Of a DNA stretch of 32,625 nucleotides, positions 22,084 through 32,625 are shown piece by piece. The position numbers and the translations under genes were made by a program. Within the stretch, counting starts at the first letter, position 1, and each line of letters starts with the position of its first letter. Source of the stretch: a virus; IMG/VR virus record IMGVR_UViG_3300005264_000031, positions 1-32,625 of that record; one strand, 5' to 3'. The notes under the pieces are model-generated. The model saw only the letters and a program-made list of their open reading frames with translations. It was not told the origin of the DNA and did not search any database.

Positions 22084-22656
22084 TCAGGGGATCAAGCTGT
22101 CTTTGTTGTCCGTGTCCGGGTCGAGGTGGAAGAAGATCGTCAGGTAACAGGCTTCCTGTGTGTCCGGGTCCAGCATCTCACCCTCGTAGAACCCGAGGAC
22201 ACCATCCTCGAAGGCCGAGAGGAACACCAATCCCCGGAGCGTATTTCCAGGTAGTGGTTGGGTCATTTTGAAGCACATGTCCTGGGTGCATTCCTCCAGG
22301 TGACTCAACACTCCGTTGGTGAACGTCACGTTTACTGTGTTCTTGGGGGGGACCTGGAAGGTGAACGAGAGTTCCTCAACCTGATCCTCGTGCATTTTCA
22401 CTGTGGCAGCACTCCCCTTACGGATTGCCGGGATTTTCGGGGCCACCGTCCCCATCCCGAACCCCTGGTAGCTGTACCGATGGTAGGCCACCATGAAGTT
22501 GTTGTTTTGGACCTTGGGGGAGGTCTCCTGGGTTTTTCCTCCGTCAAAAATGCCGGGCCGTGGGACTCGGCTGTCCTGGACAGGCTCTTCCGGGTATTCA
22601 CCACCGCAGCTTGCCAGGGTCAAGGTCAGGATAATCAGGGTCAGAAGGTTTGCCAT
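22084..22656 (-). CDS. Predicted lipoprotein, candidate moron product
   Basis: The chosen start (190 residues; GGAG six bases upstream) gives MANLLTLIILTLTLASCGGE, a signal peptide with a lipobox (LASC, Cys17). The mature part is beta-rich with two Cys near CTQDMCF and no recognised domain. Lipidation and export point to the cell envelope, e.g. superinfection exclusion or a change of host surface. It sits alone with a 43-aa gene between its own promoter (P2) and terminator. Function is not known. Confidence 0.75.
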   Translation of the reverse strand: MANLLTLIILTLTLASCGGEYPEEPVQDSRVPRPGIFDGGKTQETSPKVQNNNFMVAYHRYSYQGFGMGTVAPKIPAIRKGSAATVKMHEDQVEELSFTFQVPPKNTVNVTFTNGVLSHLEECTQDMCFKMTQPLPGNTLRGLVFLSAFEDGVLGFYEGEMLDPDTQEACYLTIFFHLDPDTDNKDSLIP

Positions 22657-22696
22657 GCGTCTCTCCACATGCCCCCCTTGCGGGGGGCGGTTGGGG

Positions 22697-22828
22697 TTAG
22701 ATTTGGAAGTACCGGTAGATGACCCGCCGTATCCACCACTTGCTGTGGTACGGCTGCATCTTACCGCAAGTCTCACACACATCCGGCCTGCGGGGTTGGG
22801 GTTTGAAGGTGTGTCCCTTAGTTGCCAT
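22697..22828 (-). CDS. Small 43-residue peptide with a CxxC pair
   Basis: It reads MATKGHTFKPQPRRPDVCET and CGKMQPYHSKWWIRRVIYRY, with CETC and a basic, aromatic C-terminus. GGGAG precedes the ATG by six bases; an in-frame ATG at 22849 is also possible. It is too short for many callers. P2 lies directly upstream and the lipoprotein follows after 40 bases, so they form one unit. Confidence 0.6.
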   Translation of the reverse strand: MATKGHTFKPQPRRPDVCETCGKMQPYHSKWWIRRVIYRYFQI

Positions 22829-22930: not shown

Positions 22931-23626
22931 TCAGGCGGAGAGGATGTCGAGGATGTCCCACTTCTTGAACTTGGGCACAGGCGGAGCCACAAACCCGAGG
23001 TCGCATCCCAAGAACCTGCGACTGCAACTCAGGGCCGCTGTGAGGACGCTGTAGCCGCCCGCAGCAGGGTCCAGCACTATATCCCCTTCCAGGGTCACGG
23101 CCTCTATTAGAGCCCGCTGTAGGCGCTCAGGTTTGGCGTGTGGGTGCCCGCCCCTGATAGCCCTCTCCGGCCACACATCAGGGATGTTGTGTTTGGTCCA
23201 CACACCCTTGGCCCGTTTGGGAGATTTTTGGAGCACAACCAGGTACTCGGCCTGTCTGCGGGTTCGGTAACCCATCCCGAACAGGCACTTGTCCCAGGTG
23301 ATGAGGTCCACGCGGTTCAAGGTGCCGAGCCCTGCAAGCAGGTCTTGGAGTTCTCCGGAGACCAGGATGAACTTGTCAATCCACAAGAACAGGTGGCCGC
23401 TGGGTTGCAGCACCCTCTCGATGTGGGTGAGGAACTCCCTGATGGCGGCCGTGTCCATTTGAACGAGACGAACACGACCCTGTTGTCGAGCACCTTCGTT
23501 ACCGTAAGATAATTTGTCGAGGATGCCCCGGTACTGAGGGTCAAAAAATATCGCCGGGATGGTCCCGGTCTCTACCTGAGCAAGTAGGTCGAGGCCATTC
23601 ATTTCCTGTGTGGTGTTGTATTTCAC
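22931..23626 (-). CDS. DNA methyltransferase, catalytic (DPQY) protein
   Basis: The 231-residue protein begins MKYNTTQEMNGLDLLAQVET at a GTG that overlaps the previous stop (GTGA). It has FFDPQYRG (residues 27-34, the DPPY-type catalytic motif IV), HPHAKP (161-166) and VLDPAAGGYSV (184-194, SAM motif I). FLGCDLG (205-211) follows. Motif order (IV then I) suggests the beta class of N4/N6 methyltransferases. It lacks a recognisable target-recognition domain; two upstream ORFs may supply one. Confidence 0.8.
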   Translation of the reverse strand: MKYNTTQEMNGLDLLAQVETGTIPAIFFDPQYRGILDKLSYGNEGARQQGRVRLVQMDTAAIREFLTHIERVLQPSGHLFLWIDKFILVSGELQDLLAGLGTLNRVDLITWDKCLFGMGYRTRRQAEYLVVLQKSPKRAKGVWTKHNIPDVWPERAIRGGHPHAKPERLQRALIEAVTLEGDIVLDPAAGGYSVLTAALSCSRRFLGCDLGFVAPPVPKFKKWDILDILSA

Positions 23627-24102
23627 GGCAGCACCTTGAAGTACCTGCTTGCCCCCACAAAATCCCCATTCAACTCAGCCACAGGGCACCCAGGGACACA
23701 ATCCCAATCCGGCACGGTCTCTTTGCCGGATGCGTCGGCGTATCCGGCAGGTGGGCGTGGCCTGGAGTCGGAGCCGTACACCTGTTTGCTGCGACCTTCC
23801 GGGTGGCCCTGGAAGTTGGTGCCCCTGACCTTCTTCTCCCCGACCAGATCGCACTCAGGGAGATGTTGGAGAATTAAATTTGTGGGGAAGCGTCCCCCGG
23901 AATTCTGCGGGTTGATCACCCGGTTGACCACCCCGTAGAGAGGGGAGTTGGTACGGGACGGACCGAGTGACCTGTCGGGACCCTGGGGTCCGGAGATCCG
24001 GCACCCGTCGATGTTCAGCACCCCCGTCCCGTGTTTGAGAACGTTGGCCGCCACCGAGTTACCCGCTGCAAGAGGCTTACGAGCTATGTGGATGACGATC
24101 AT
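23623..24102 (-). CDS. Methyltransferase-related fragment B
   Basis: The 159-residue protein starts at MIVIHIARKPLAAGNSVAAN, an ATG overlapping the previous stop. It contains VLKHGTGVLNIDGCRISGP and GRFPTNLIL, segments found in the middle of phage DNA methyltransferases, and ends FVGASRYFKVLP. It lacks DPPY and SAM motifs. It closely resembles fragment A just upstream, so it is one of a tandem pair. Probably a recognition subunit or remnant. Confidence 0.65.
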   Translation of the reverse strand: MIVIHIARKPLAAGNSVAANVLKHGTGVLNIDGCRISGPQGPDRSLGPSRTNSPLYGVVNRVINPQNSGGRFPTNLILQHLPECDLVGEKKVRGTNFQGHPEGRSKQVYGSDSRPRPPAGYADASGKETVPDWDCVPGCPVAELNGDFVGASRYFKVLP

Positions 24103-24407
24103 GGGGTCACTTTGAAATATTTTGGGAACTGGGACGAAGCCTCCTGTGTCAGGATCAAATTTGTGGGGAAGCGTCCCATGATTCCCGAGCCGGAGGCGGC
24201 GTGGTAGGTCACACCGAAGGCCGTGCCCGCTCGGTCGGGGTGACCCTGACACCGACCCTGCTCGTCCCGACGATTACAGGTGGTGCCACCCCCCTCTTCC
24301 CCAATCCGACACCCGTCGATGTTCAAACCGCCTGTCCCATGCTCGGTGACGTTGGCGGCCACGGTGGGTTCCGAGAGGGGTTTCCTGGCTACGTGGATGA
24401 CGATCAA
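24099..24407 (-). CDS. Methyltransferase-related fragment A, TTG start
   Basis: This 102-residue protein is best started at a TTG (overlap TTGA with the amidase stop) with GGAGG five bases upstream. It reads LIVIHVARKPLSEPTVAANV then TEHGTGGLNIDGCRIG and ends GRFPTNLILTQEASSQ. It is a shorter copy of fragment B. No catalytic motif is present. The TTG aligns with the ATG of fragment B, which supports the start. Confidence 0.65.
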   Translation of the reverse strand: MIVIHVARKPLSEPTVAANVTEHGTGGLNIDGCRIGEEGGGTTCNRRDEQGRCQGHPDRAGTAFGVTYHAASGSGIMGRFPTNLILTQEASSQFPKYFKVTP

Positions 24408-24868
24408 GGCAACCTCCAAACAATCCCGGCACAAGACAGGGCACGGACGAACCTCTCATCGAACCCCGGCCCTGGATCCTTCTTCTTGGGGTTCAAATCG
24501 CTGTGGCGACACCACCCTGACAGGTTCCCGTTGGCGGCAATTTGAAGGGCTGCAATGGCACGGGCGAATTCGACCAGCTCCGAGACGGACCGTGGGTCCT
24601 TATCCCAAGGGCCAGGCATCTCTAGCCCCCACCAATCGTTGGCCCTGGAAGCGTGTTGGGCTCTCAGATCGAGGGGAACTTGCTGGACCAACTCCCCGTG
24701 GGTGGAAGACCAGGATAAGTGACAACTGTATTTGTTCCGGGCGAGCCACTCGGCAACCCCCGCCCCCACGGCACCTGAGTGGATCACGATTCCGGTGGGG
24801 GTTTTGAGAGGTTTGAATTTGGGGATTTCGGAATCCGGGTATTGGATGAAGCCAGGTAGCCAGATCAT
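24404..24868 (-). CDS. Endolysin: N-acetylmuramoyl-L-alanine amidase (Amidase_2)
   Basis: The 154-residue protein has the amidase-2 pattern: GIVIHSGAVG (His30, zinc), SCHLSWSSTHGELVQQVPLD, WGLEMPGPWD and RHSDLNPKKKDPGPGF (His122, Lys129/130 and Asp131 in the place of the usual Cys). It should cut the amide bond between muramic acid and the peptide stem. No signal peptide is visible, so a holin would release it. A holin candidate lies at 25103. It overlaps fragment A by four bases. Confidence 0.88.
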   Translation of the reverse strand: MIWLPGFIQYPDSEIPKFKPLKTPTGIVIHSGAVGAGVAEWLARNKYSCHLSWSSTHGELVQQVPLDLRAQHASRANDWWGLEMPGPWDKDPRSVSELVEFARAIAALQIAANGNLSGWCRHSDLNPKKKDPGPGFDERFVRALSCAGIVWRLP

Positions 24869-25106
24869 TACAATGCCCCCGACGTTCGATCTGATTCCGG
24901 ACCCATCCCGCGTCCAAATTCAAAGAGTCACAGATCCAAACAAAACACCCCGGATCCGTGGATTCCGTGTGCAGCCAGTGGCGTGCCGACGCTGCGACGG
25001 CCACGACTTTTGATCGTGTGTTTTTGGCCGCCTGCCGGAGGACCGCGACCCACAGATTTACACACGGGTCGAGGTCGACATCTGTCGTGTTGCGACGGTC
25101 CCTCAT
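24600..25106 (-). CDS. Phage hypothetical protein; true end probably near 24868
   Basis: The first about 82 residues look like a compact protein (DLDPCVNLWVAVLRQAAKNT, then GCFVWICDSLNLDAGWVRNQ), a pattern I know from phage genomes but whose function is unknown. The start overlaps the holin stop and has AGGGG upstream. As sequenced, the frame continues 267 bases across the amidase gene. One extra G in a run of five (24876-24880) would instead give ERRGAL followed by TAATG, coupled to the amidase start. So the long form may be a one-base assembly or mutation artefact. Confidence 0.55.
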   Translation of the reverse strand: MRDRRNTTDVDLDPCVNLWVAVLRQAAKNTRSKVVAVAASARHWLHTESTDPGCFVWICDSLNLDAGWVRNQIERRGHCNDLATWLHPIPGFRNPQIQTSQNPHRNRDPLRCRGGGGCRVARPEQIQLSLILVFHPRGVGPASSPRSESPTRFQGQRLVGARDAWPLG

Positions 25107-25330
25107 TCTTGCCCCTCAGCGCCCTTCTCAGGCGCTTTGGGTGCCGGGGAACCCCACAGGATACCTGACGAGGTCAACGTCCGCAGGAGAGCCATCAGGG
25201 CCGCTGAGACGACCCCTGTGGCCGTGGTGCGGGTCAACTCACCTGCGAGGTAAGCTTCGACCAACGTGAGCAGGAGGATAAGCACTGCCGTCCATAGGGT
25301 CTTACTGCGTAGTGGGTGTTTGGTGGGCAT
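25103..25330 (-). CDS. Holin candidate
   Basis: The chosen start (75 residues; GGAG eight bases upstream) gives a short basic N-terminus, two hydrophobic segments (TLWTAVLILLLTLVEAYLAG and TATGVVSAALMALLRTLTSS) and a polar C-terminus, the usual small holin layout. It lies four genes upstream of the amidase in the same leftward unit. It would form the membrane hole that releases the endolysin. Confidence 0.7.
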   Translation of the reverse strand: MPTKHPLRSKTLWTAVLILLLTLVEAYLAGELTRTTATGVVSAALMALLRTLTSSGILWGSPAPKAPEKGAEGQE

Positions 25331-25344
25331 GGTAGGTCTCCGTG

Positions 25345-25614
25345 TCATGGTTGTGTGTTGTGCAGCAGCCGCCAGTGTGTGGCGTCGACACAGTAGGTCC
25401 ACCCGGACCACACCTTCCCGTCCTCAAAAATGGCCACATCGGGCCGATCCCAGTCTTTATGCCAGGTCAGGATCAGGACGCCGTCCGGTGGCATCTCGCG
25501 GGACGCAAGGTGCCACTCCTCGTTGTCGGGCAGCACGCAACCGTCAGGCACGAGGATCTCGATGGCACTGCATGTTGAGCAGTTATACAGGCCGTGCGGA
25601 GTGCATAGGGTCAT
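25345..25614 (-). CDS. DUF551-like small protein
   Basis: The 89-residue protein starts with GGAG eight to nine bases upstream. It reads MTLCTPHGLYNCSTCSAIEI and then MPPDGVLILTWHKDWDRPDV and VWSGWTYCVDATHWRLL. The order MPP-D-G-V-L-I-L-T-W, then W, then T-H-W fits DUF551-type proteins, which are common in phages. Role unknown; a CxxC pair is present. Confidence 0.65.
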   Translation of the reverse strand: MTLCTPHGLYNCSTCSAIEILVPDGCVLPDNEEWHLASREMPPDGVLILTWHKDWDRPDVAIFEDGKVWSGWTYCVDATHWRLLHNTQP

Positions 25615-31943: not shown

Positions 31944-32625
31944 CAGGTGGGTCTCACTGTCAAGCAGTTGGGGGAGGTGCTTATCGGATAAATGATGAGA
32001 TCTACCGTACCACCCACACCATGGTCCGTCGGCACCACATTGGCAGCGGGGGTCACCACGGTAACATCCTGCACCCCCTGCACGCCGCTGGTCTCCCCGG
32101 TCTCAGCAACCTGGTAGATCAGGGCCGCTGCAAGGGCGTTAACCCTCAGCGTGTCGTCCCACACCTGGTTTGGGTCGGCGGATGCACCCTTGGCAGGACC
32201 CAACGTGTCCATGTAAGAGATCACAGCAGCCAGGGCTCCTGAACTGAGGGGGCCACCAGGCCATAGCGGGTTGGTGATGAGGGGGACATTGGTGGGTGTC
32301 GTTGTCACCCGGATTTCGTCCCCACCGGATACCGGACCGGAACCTGCCGTGTACAGGTCGGCCACAAGGAGTTCTCCGTTCACAAAGACTCGTGCGGAAC
32401 CCTTGGCCGCAATGGCGGCCTGGAGTGAAGCATTTGACGCAGTGAGTTCGATCTCACTGGAACCGGCATCCCACCCCTCGACCGTATCCGCAGCCCCCGT
32501 CCAGTCGAATTCGTATCCCGGAGAAGGGGTCAACTGCACATCGACGATCTGAGCGTCCGCGTCCGGTGTCAGTGCCGAACTGTCCAGTGTTGTGTCCGGG
32601 CGGTTGTCGTCGATGGCATCCTGGA
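31943..32625 (-). CDS. Baseplate assembly protein J (gp47-like), C-terminal part across the join
   Basis: This is the rest of the J gene begun at 882, with codons 295-487 lying at 32521-31943 (positions 32522-32625 duplicate 1-104). It contains SSEIELTASNASLQAAIAAK, the usual J domain strands, and ends NCLTVRPT. It overlaps the gp48 start. The join is in frame. Confidence 0.9.
   Translation of the reverse strand, partial: QDAIDDNRPDTTLDSSALTPDADAQIVDVQLTPSPGYEFDWTGAADTVEGWDAGSSEIELTASNASLQAAIAAKGSARVFVNGELLVADLYTAGSGPVSGGDEIRVTTTPTNVPLITNPLWPGGPLSSGALAAVISYMDTLGPAKGASADPNQVWDDTLRVNALAAALIYQVAETGETSGVQGVQDVTVVTPAANVVPTDHGVGGTVDLIIYPISTSPNCLTVRPT
32522..32625. repeat. Terminal direct repeat, right copy
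   Basis: Identical to 1-104, marking the circle closure; see the left copy. Confidence 0.95.

Follow-up and report, generated by a model that had tools for sequence, protein, structure and literature searches.

The window analyzed in this study (32,625 nt, positions 1 to 32,625 of IMG/VR record IMGVR_UViG_3300005264_000031) encodes two short proteins, A and B, that very probably belong to a widespread phage family of detached target-recognition domain (TRD) modules. We judge it an evenly balanced proposition that they serve as recognition subunits of a DNA methyltransferase, with the product of the gene that follows them, C, as the likeliest partner in this phage. A comparison of the record ends revealed an exact direct terminal repeat of 104 bp (positions 1 to 104 and 32522 to 32625), and a baseplate-J-like open reading frame (ORF) continues through the end-to-start junction; together, these features indicate that the whole genome is present, in circularly permuted form, with a length of ∼32,521 bp. 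ORFs for sheath, tube, tape-measure, and terminase proteins (the structural genes named by reading and the terminase by search) identify it as a myovirus, and its size is small for a myovirus with a sheath and tape measure.

The three genes lie consecutively on the minus strand, downstream of a gene for an N-acetylmuramoyl-L-alanine amidase-like endolysin (positions 24404 to 24868, minus strand; PHROG 880 endolysin, 7e-4; Amidase_2, 4.1e-5, a match that falls under the curated cut-off). Each gene shares 4 bp with its neighbor: the amidase stop and A start overlap at TTGA (24404 to 24407), the A stop and B start at ATGA (24099 to 24102), and the B stop and C start at GTGA (23623 to 23626). The coordinates given in an earlier sequence-only reading are borne out. 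A GGAGG motif (24413 to 24417, minus strand) provides a ribosome-binding site for A within the 20 bases 5' of its TTG codon (GGGATTGTTTGGAGGTTGCC). No clear ribosome-binding site was seen in the sequence upstream of B, and expression of this gene therefore probably relies on translational coupling. The gene after C (22084 to 22782, minus strand) is lipoprotein-like (LTLIILTLTLASCGG), and a small membrane protein gene (25103 to 25411, minus strand) precedes the amidase; with these genes around them, A, B, and C appear to be embedded in a lysis cassette.

Module A (24099 to 24407, minus strand; 102 amino acids, TTG start) and module B (23623 to 24102, minus strand; 159 amino acids, ATG start) were assigned as free-standing TRD modules from their translations, PHROG 3008 matches, a module profile, and their place in a phylogenetic tree. 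The landmarks of A are MIVIHVARKPL...LNIDGCRI...GRFPTNLIL...KYFKVTP (aligned as LIVIHVARKPL), and those of B are MIVIHIARKPL...LNIDGCRI...GRFPTNLIL...DWDCVPGCPV...GASRYFKVLP. Neither protein had any match in a Pfam search, the HsdS/Methylase_S domain included, and no close relative of either was found, the best having ∼46 to 60% identity over parts of the sequence. Few relatives emerged when A, B, or C was used as a single query sequence, and alignments and start-codon DNA patterns were required to find more. Both proteins matched PHROG 3008, annotated as DNA methyltransferase, over the first ∼85 positions only (4e-12 and 4e-10), which upholds the original impression of a likeness to the central part of phage methyltransferases. 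A profile of the free-standing modules, constructed with the rows of the window left out, recovered B (6.9e-29) and A (2.1e-24) as the sole matches among all six-frame ORFs of at least 30 amino acids in the window, and none of 1,000 shuffled copies matched.

Both modules begin at a copy of strand VIII that fits the pattern [MVL]-x-[VI]-[VI]-[TH]-[VIL]-ARKP, and in the alignment both keep the blocks LNIDGCRI and GRFPTNLIL and a terminal [RK]YFK, with A lacking the ASR that precedes YFK (and thus a DxGGASR ending). Motif IV and motif I are both absent from the A and B ORFs, in agreement with the initial description of the two as lacking catalytic motifs. Of the fused phage methyltransferases, they represent nothing but the segment that separates the catalytic half from the AdoMet-binding half. 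As this segment sits between the catalytic halves, which is the place of the TRD in many beta-class enzymes, we labeled it a TRD, and its position suggests that it probably reads DNA sequence. A structure prediction for B alone had a mean pLDDT of 59.8, with the first ten residues at ∼36; within this low-confidence model, the unfolded first ten residues would be consistent with a strand that becomes ordered upon contact with a partner. A search of solved structures with the module profile gave no match.

The reference point for these proteins is the fused phage beta-class N6/N4 methyltransferases (PF01555; mycobacteriophage PopTart gp63; PHROG 3008/67), in which a DPPY half is followed by an 'EPIVVARKPL' strand, a variable segment containing LNIDGCR and GRWPANLIL, an ASRFF motif, HPTVKP, and a DPFxGSG half. 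The likeness is to the middle segment: A and B align to ARKPL..LNIDGCR..GRWPANLIL..ASRFF, the stretch flanked by motifs VIII and X, but whereas this segment lies covalently between both catalytic halves in the fused enzymes, A and B are genes of their own with their own start signature. The predicted model of one fused homologue (L058) has a confident core that matches the beta-class N6/N4 methyltransferases CcrM (6pbd), M.RsrI, and M.PvuII, and its middle (TRD) segment was modeled poorly. In the huge phages LR745208 and LR756508, the methyltransferases are fused or degenerate at the places read.

The detached modules have a start signature of their own. Of 37 free-standing hits, 32 carry threonine or histidine at the second residue ahead of ARKP, compared to 18 of 131 fused hits (threonine in all 18 and histidine in none); one contig contributes several partial copies to these counts through overlapping loci. 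The start residue is mostly valine or isoleucine in free-standing modules, where fused methyltransferases have the proline of 'EP'. We also constructed a tree of 80 TRD segments taken from fused enzymes, free-standing modules, and TRD-plus-motif-I proteins, in which one branch (98/97) has 42 fused-enzyme TRDs, one TRD-plus-motif-I row, and one free-standing call on one side and 31 free-standing modules, 4 TRD-plus-motif-I proteins, and 1 fused TRD on the other. A and B both fall on the module side, A near a module from a Myxococcales metagenome-assembled genome (MAG) and one from contig G006, and B elsewhere; the deep branches on this side are weakly supported. The tree position, the start signature, and the matches to the window-free profile thus indicate that A and B derive from a shared module pool and are not leftovers of a local enzyme. 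The proposal that they are decaying remnants of a local full-length methyltransferase, which had been named as grounds for rejecting a functional role, is disfavored by the tree position, the start signature, and the intact core motifs, although functional loss remains as a rival and is weighed below. Their separate positions in the module tree rule out a recent tandem duplication, and the earlier description of the pair as duplicated is not retained.

Free-standing TRD modules were identified on ∼12 other contigs, mostly from large phages and up to 536 kb in length, where they form part of split methyltransferases composed of three kinds of genes: DPPY halves (N), AdoMet-binding halves (C-half), and one to eight tandem TRD modules (T). 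The N proteins extend from the DPPY of motif IV through strand VIII, the C-halves carry motif X and AdoMet motif I with a degenerate N part, and the T modules start exactly at a second strand-VIII copy (MI[VI]I[T/H]VARKPL) and end at ASRFFKQV. The 125.7-kb contig G001 (IMGVR_UViG_3300025669_002088) has 6 N, 6 T, and 1 C-half; in this array, a 449-amino-acid motif-I protein, degenerate at the DPPY position, precedes six DPPY halves, which terminate at or near 'WEPFLVGRKPL', and six TRD modules, which begin at 'MIVITVARKPL' and in most cases end after 'ASRFFKQV'. Contig G002 (CALEMP010000141.1) has 6 N, 8 free T, and 1 T fused to the C-half as a TRD-plus-motif-I protein, and the 536-kb contig G006 has 1 N, 1 T fused to the C-half, and 6 free T, of which one lies apart at the contig's far end. 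The same split theme recurs in G003 (436 kb) and G031 to G037, and G012 encodes a single polypeptide with two TRDs in a row (a fused N-T-T-C-half) together with one free module. Exact 4-bp overlaps join 23 adjacent gene pairs in G001 to G004 and G006, including most neighboring modules, and the ATGA overlap found between A and B also joins most modules in other phages. Among the matches examined from 50,697 annotated phages, which were mostly fused mycobacteriophage enzymes, there were no free-standing modules and hence no named, isolated phage that carries one.

N and C-halves adjoin the modules in every other contig with enough context, the exceptions being the window and G030. The window genome lacks both a separate DPPY half and a separate motif-I half and has only C, which carries both motifs. 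On the 152.5-kb contig G030, six intact tandem modules (L312:5526-9315) lie between primase and DNA polymerase genes, and no DPPY half, motif-I half, or PF01555 gene was detected anywhere on this contig; it has no terminal repeat that we could find, and this genome may therefore be incomplete. Modules are also joined to other catalytic types: in G004 (L205:6817-9459, an 880-amino-acid ORF) and G005 (L206:9420-11039, a 539-amino-acid ORF), an amino-methyltransferase-type TRD module is fused in frame, N-terminal to a C5-cytosine methyltransferase, with the fusion in G004 interrupted by an intein-like insert, and a T module in G004 overlaps a complete PF01555 methyltransferase by 4 bp. The multiplication of T modules suggests that one catalytic set could be re-aimed by exchanging recognition subunits. 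On a general level, we tentatively suggest, at just short of even confidence, that phages run a combinatorial multisubunit beta-class methyltransferase in which a few N and C-halves work with interchangeable modules, that the methylated motifs change by gain and loss of small genes, and that the modules move between phages and couple to unrelated cores such as C and the C5 enzymes of G004 and G005. Outside the phage contigs, a 112-amino-acid free-standing TRD module (L210:8004-8342) lies at the end of a contig with otherwise bacterial-looking genes in a Myxococcales MAG (CAITYF010000157.1), and a different contig of this MAG ends with a second fragment.

The gene that follows B encodes a complete small beta-class DNA methyltransferase of 231 amino acids with a GTG start (C; 22931 to 23626, minus strand), as judged from PF01555 (1.4e-14; 55 bits against a cut-off of 26.7) and a family alignment. 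Motif IV precedes motif I, with DPQY at residues 29 to 32, HPHAKP (motif X), and DPAAGG at residues 186 to 191; the DPQY and DPAAGG noted at the outset are thus confirmed, and by these motifs C is a beta-class enzyme with predicted methylation activity. The impression that it has no evident recognition domain is contradicted by a stretch of 26 to 30 amino acids between motif VIII and HPHxKP that it shares with its family and that carries the conserved pattern W[TN]xHxIPDVWxEK. Since this specificity segment is typical of the family, C should work alone, and we found no support for viewing it as a crippled enzyme that needs A and B. C is a normal member of a family of small phage and metagenome methyltransferases (L016, L017, and L215 to L229; FFDPQYRG...HPHSKP...DPAAGSYSV), to which it is 42 to 60% identical by local alignment, and it is the only member with TRD modules directly upstream. 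None of 17 relatives had a TRD module within 6 kb, no free-standing TRD module occurred on any of the 17 contigs, and 16 of these lacked any TRD match, with the remaining one carrying a separate full-length methyltransferase. Conversely, no C-family protein was found on the module-array contigs, whose matches were all weak and fell in the shared motif-I end. A search for sister phages through terminase relatives recovered none with modules.

Within the complete window, PF01555 and module searches identified C as the sole PF01555 gene and A and B as the sole TRD modules. With a complete genome and C as its sole detected methyltransferase, A and B would act with C, with a methyltransferase from elsewhere, alone, or not at all. 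Our main proposal is that A and B are recognition subunits that work in trans with a DNA methyltransferase, C being the most available partner. T modules would use the strand-VIII copy and the ASRFFK end to dock on a catalytic core, with the variable middle reading DNA, and C would be the core bound by A and B. Several T modules would allow one core to methylate several motifs, and A and B may thereby widen the set of methylated sites in phage DNA and protect it from restriction. A pairing with C is favored by the shared operon with 4-bp overlaps, by the location of C in the position that DPPY halves hold behind TRD modules in the arrays, by the absence of any other detected partner in the complete genome, and by the joining of modules to other catalytic types elsewhere. 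On the other hand, 4-bp gene overlaps are common in phages, B has a low-confidence single-chain fold, the specificity segment of C is intact, and the distribution of modules and C-family proteins across contigs means that the pairing has been seen once. With relatives of C living without modules, we regard the partnership as plausible and unproven. Of the initial idea of one enzyme with exchangeable recognition subunits, the exchangeable subunits are the best reading in light of the module arrays, but a single enzyme formed by A, B, and C is unproven, given the 16 module-free contigs with C relatives, the lack of C-family proteins on array contigs, and the apparent self-sufficiency of C. Nothing favors the alternative idea of an anti-restriction set beyond ordinary protective methylation.

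We consider it unlikely that A and B are nonfunctional cargo, that is, genuine modules from the large-phage pool that are inert without N and C-halves, with C an independent orphan methyltransferase that lies downstream by chance. This would fit a complete genome that has no catalytic half other than C, an enzyme that looks self-sufficient and whose relatives live without modules, and the short length of A (102 amino acids) with its missing DxGGASR ending, and at ∼46 to 60% identity over parts to the best relatives, decay after a recent acquisition and upkeep are indistinguishable. Yet there are two modules, both are open, both start at the module boundary, and both are coupled to their neighbors; in addition, A has a good ribosome-binding site, the conserved core motifs of both are intact, and G030 retains six intact tandem modules that are likewise without a detected catalytic half. 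G030, with its modules and no detected halves, would also fit a service to a split or related catalytic core supplied by the host, by a prophage, or by a large phage infecting the same cell, on which A and B would dock to redirect it toward protecting the DNA of this phage. The conserved module edges point to a common docking interface, and related fused or split cores exist in many phages and bacteria, but fused cores already carry a TRD of their own and the G030 genome may be incomplete, so that we hold such service in trans to be quite unlikely.

The existence of modules without detected catalytic halves, in the window and in G030, could be read instead as a sign of DNA-binding proteins that act autonomously and, without methylation, mask sites from restriction or for regulation, and TRDs bind DNA by definition. 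We view this as very unlikely, as N and C-halves adjoin modules in every other contig with enough context, isolated TRDs usually bind DNA weakly, and B alone has no confident predicted fold. The remaining explanation, a sequencing or assembly artifact or a frameshifted remnant of one full-length methyltransferase, is extremely improbable. Some array ORFs in G003, G004, and G034 do look frameshifted or interrupted, but two complete TRDs in a row cannot arise from one methyltransferase by frameshift, the window contains no N-half sequence, A and B belong to the free-standing group of the tree, and both the start at the module boundary and the 4-bp overlaps recur in unrelated contigs.

Several known systems share features with A and B and the phage arrays. 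M.AquI and M.EcoHK31I are naturally split C5-methyltransferases made of two polypeptides, and in M.AquI the split falls within the variable region (PMC3404938). The phage enzymes resemble these in dividing one DNA methyltransferase over separate polypeptides, but M.AquI and M.EcoHK31I are C5-cytosine enzymes in which each part is present once, whereas the phage arrays are amino-methyltransferases with three kinds of parts in which the recognition part is multiplied. In the type I HsdM/HsdS systems such as EcoKI, a separate specificity subunit is encoded by overlapping, translationally coupled genes, and subunit exchange alters specificity (PMC3510504). A and B are similar in that they would provide a separate specificity subunit and show gene overlap, but no HsdM-type partner was found beside them, the genome search being for PF01555. 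HsdS also differs in fold, having two TRDs and conserved helices. Multispecific C5-methyltransferases, as they are represented in a later source, carry several TRDs for one catalytic core on a single chain (Trautner et al. 1996, cited in PMC12707154). By that account, their TRDs share a polypeptide with a C5 core, whereas the phage modules are separate genes, and the nearest analogue among our contigs is the fused N-T-T-C-half protein of G012. We found no description in the open-access papers covered by our searches of detached TRD arrays or of a beta-class methyltransferase in three kinds of genes with a multiplied recognition gene. The principles are therefore each known singly (split methyltransferases, HsdM/HsdS, and multi-TRD enzymes), and their modular beta-class combination is apparently undescribed.

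If our proposal is true, these modules would represent an amino-methyltransferase counterpart of swappable specificity subunits, in which genes of 100 to 220 amino acids could re-aim a shared enzyme. This would suggest how large phages resist many restriction systems at low genetic cost, would account for many ORFs annotated as 'hypothetical' or 'partial methyltransferase' in huge-phage genomes, and could supply small recognition parts for programmable DNA methylation.

Two further features of the wider methyltransferase family were observed. Intein-like inserts occur at one identical site, between W-x-YG and SGFPKS, on several unrelated contigs (L005, L039/L209, L201, L313, L324, and L326), and they are also found in stand-alone DPPY halves. 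In a 484-kb huge phage (LR756508.1; L324:2551-7878), tandem methyltransferases include one 339-amino-acid copy that has no DPPY and a degenerate motif I, and this copy may represent an intermediate stage linking tandem fused enzymes to split modules.
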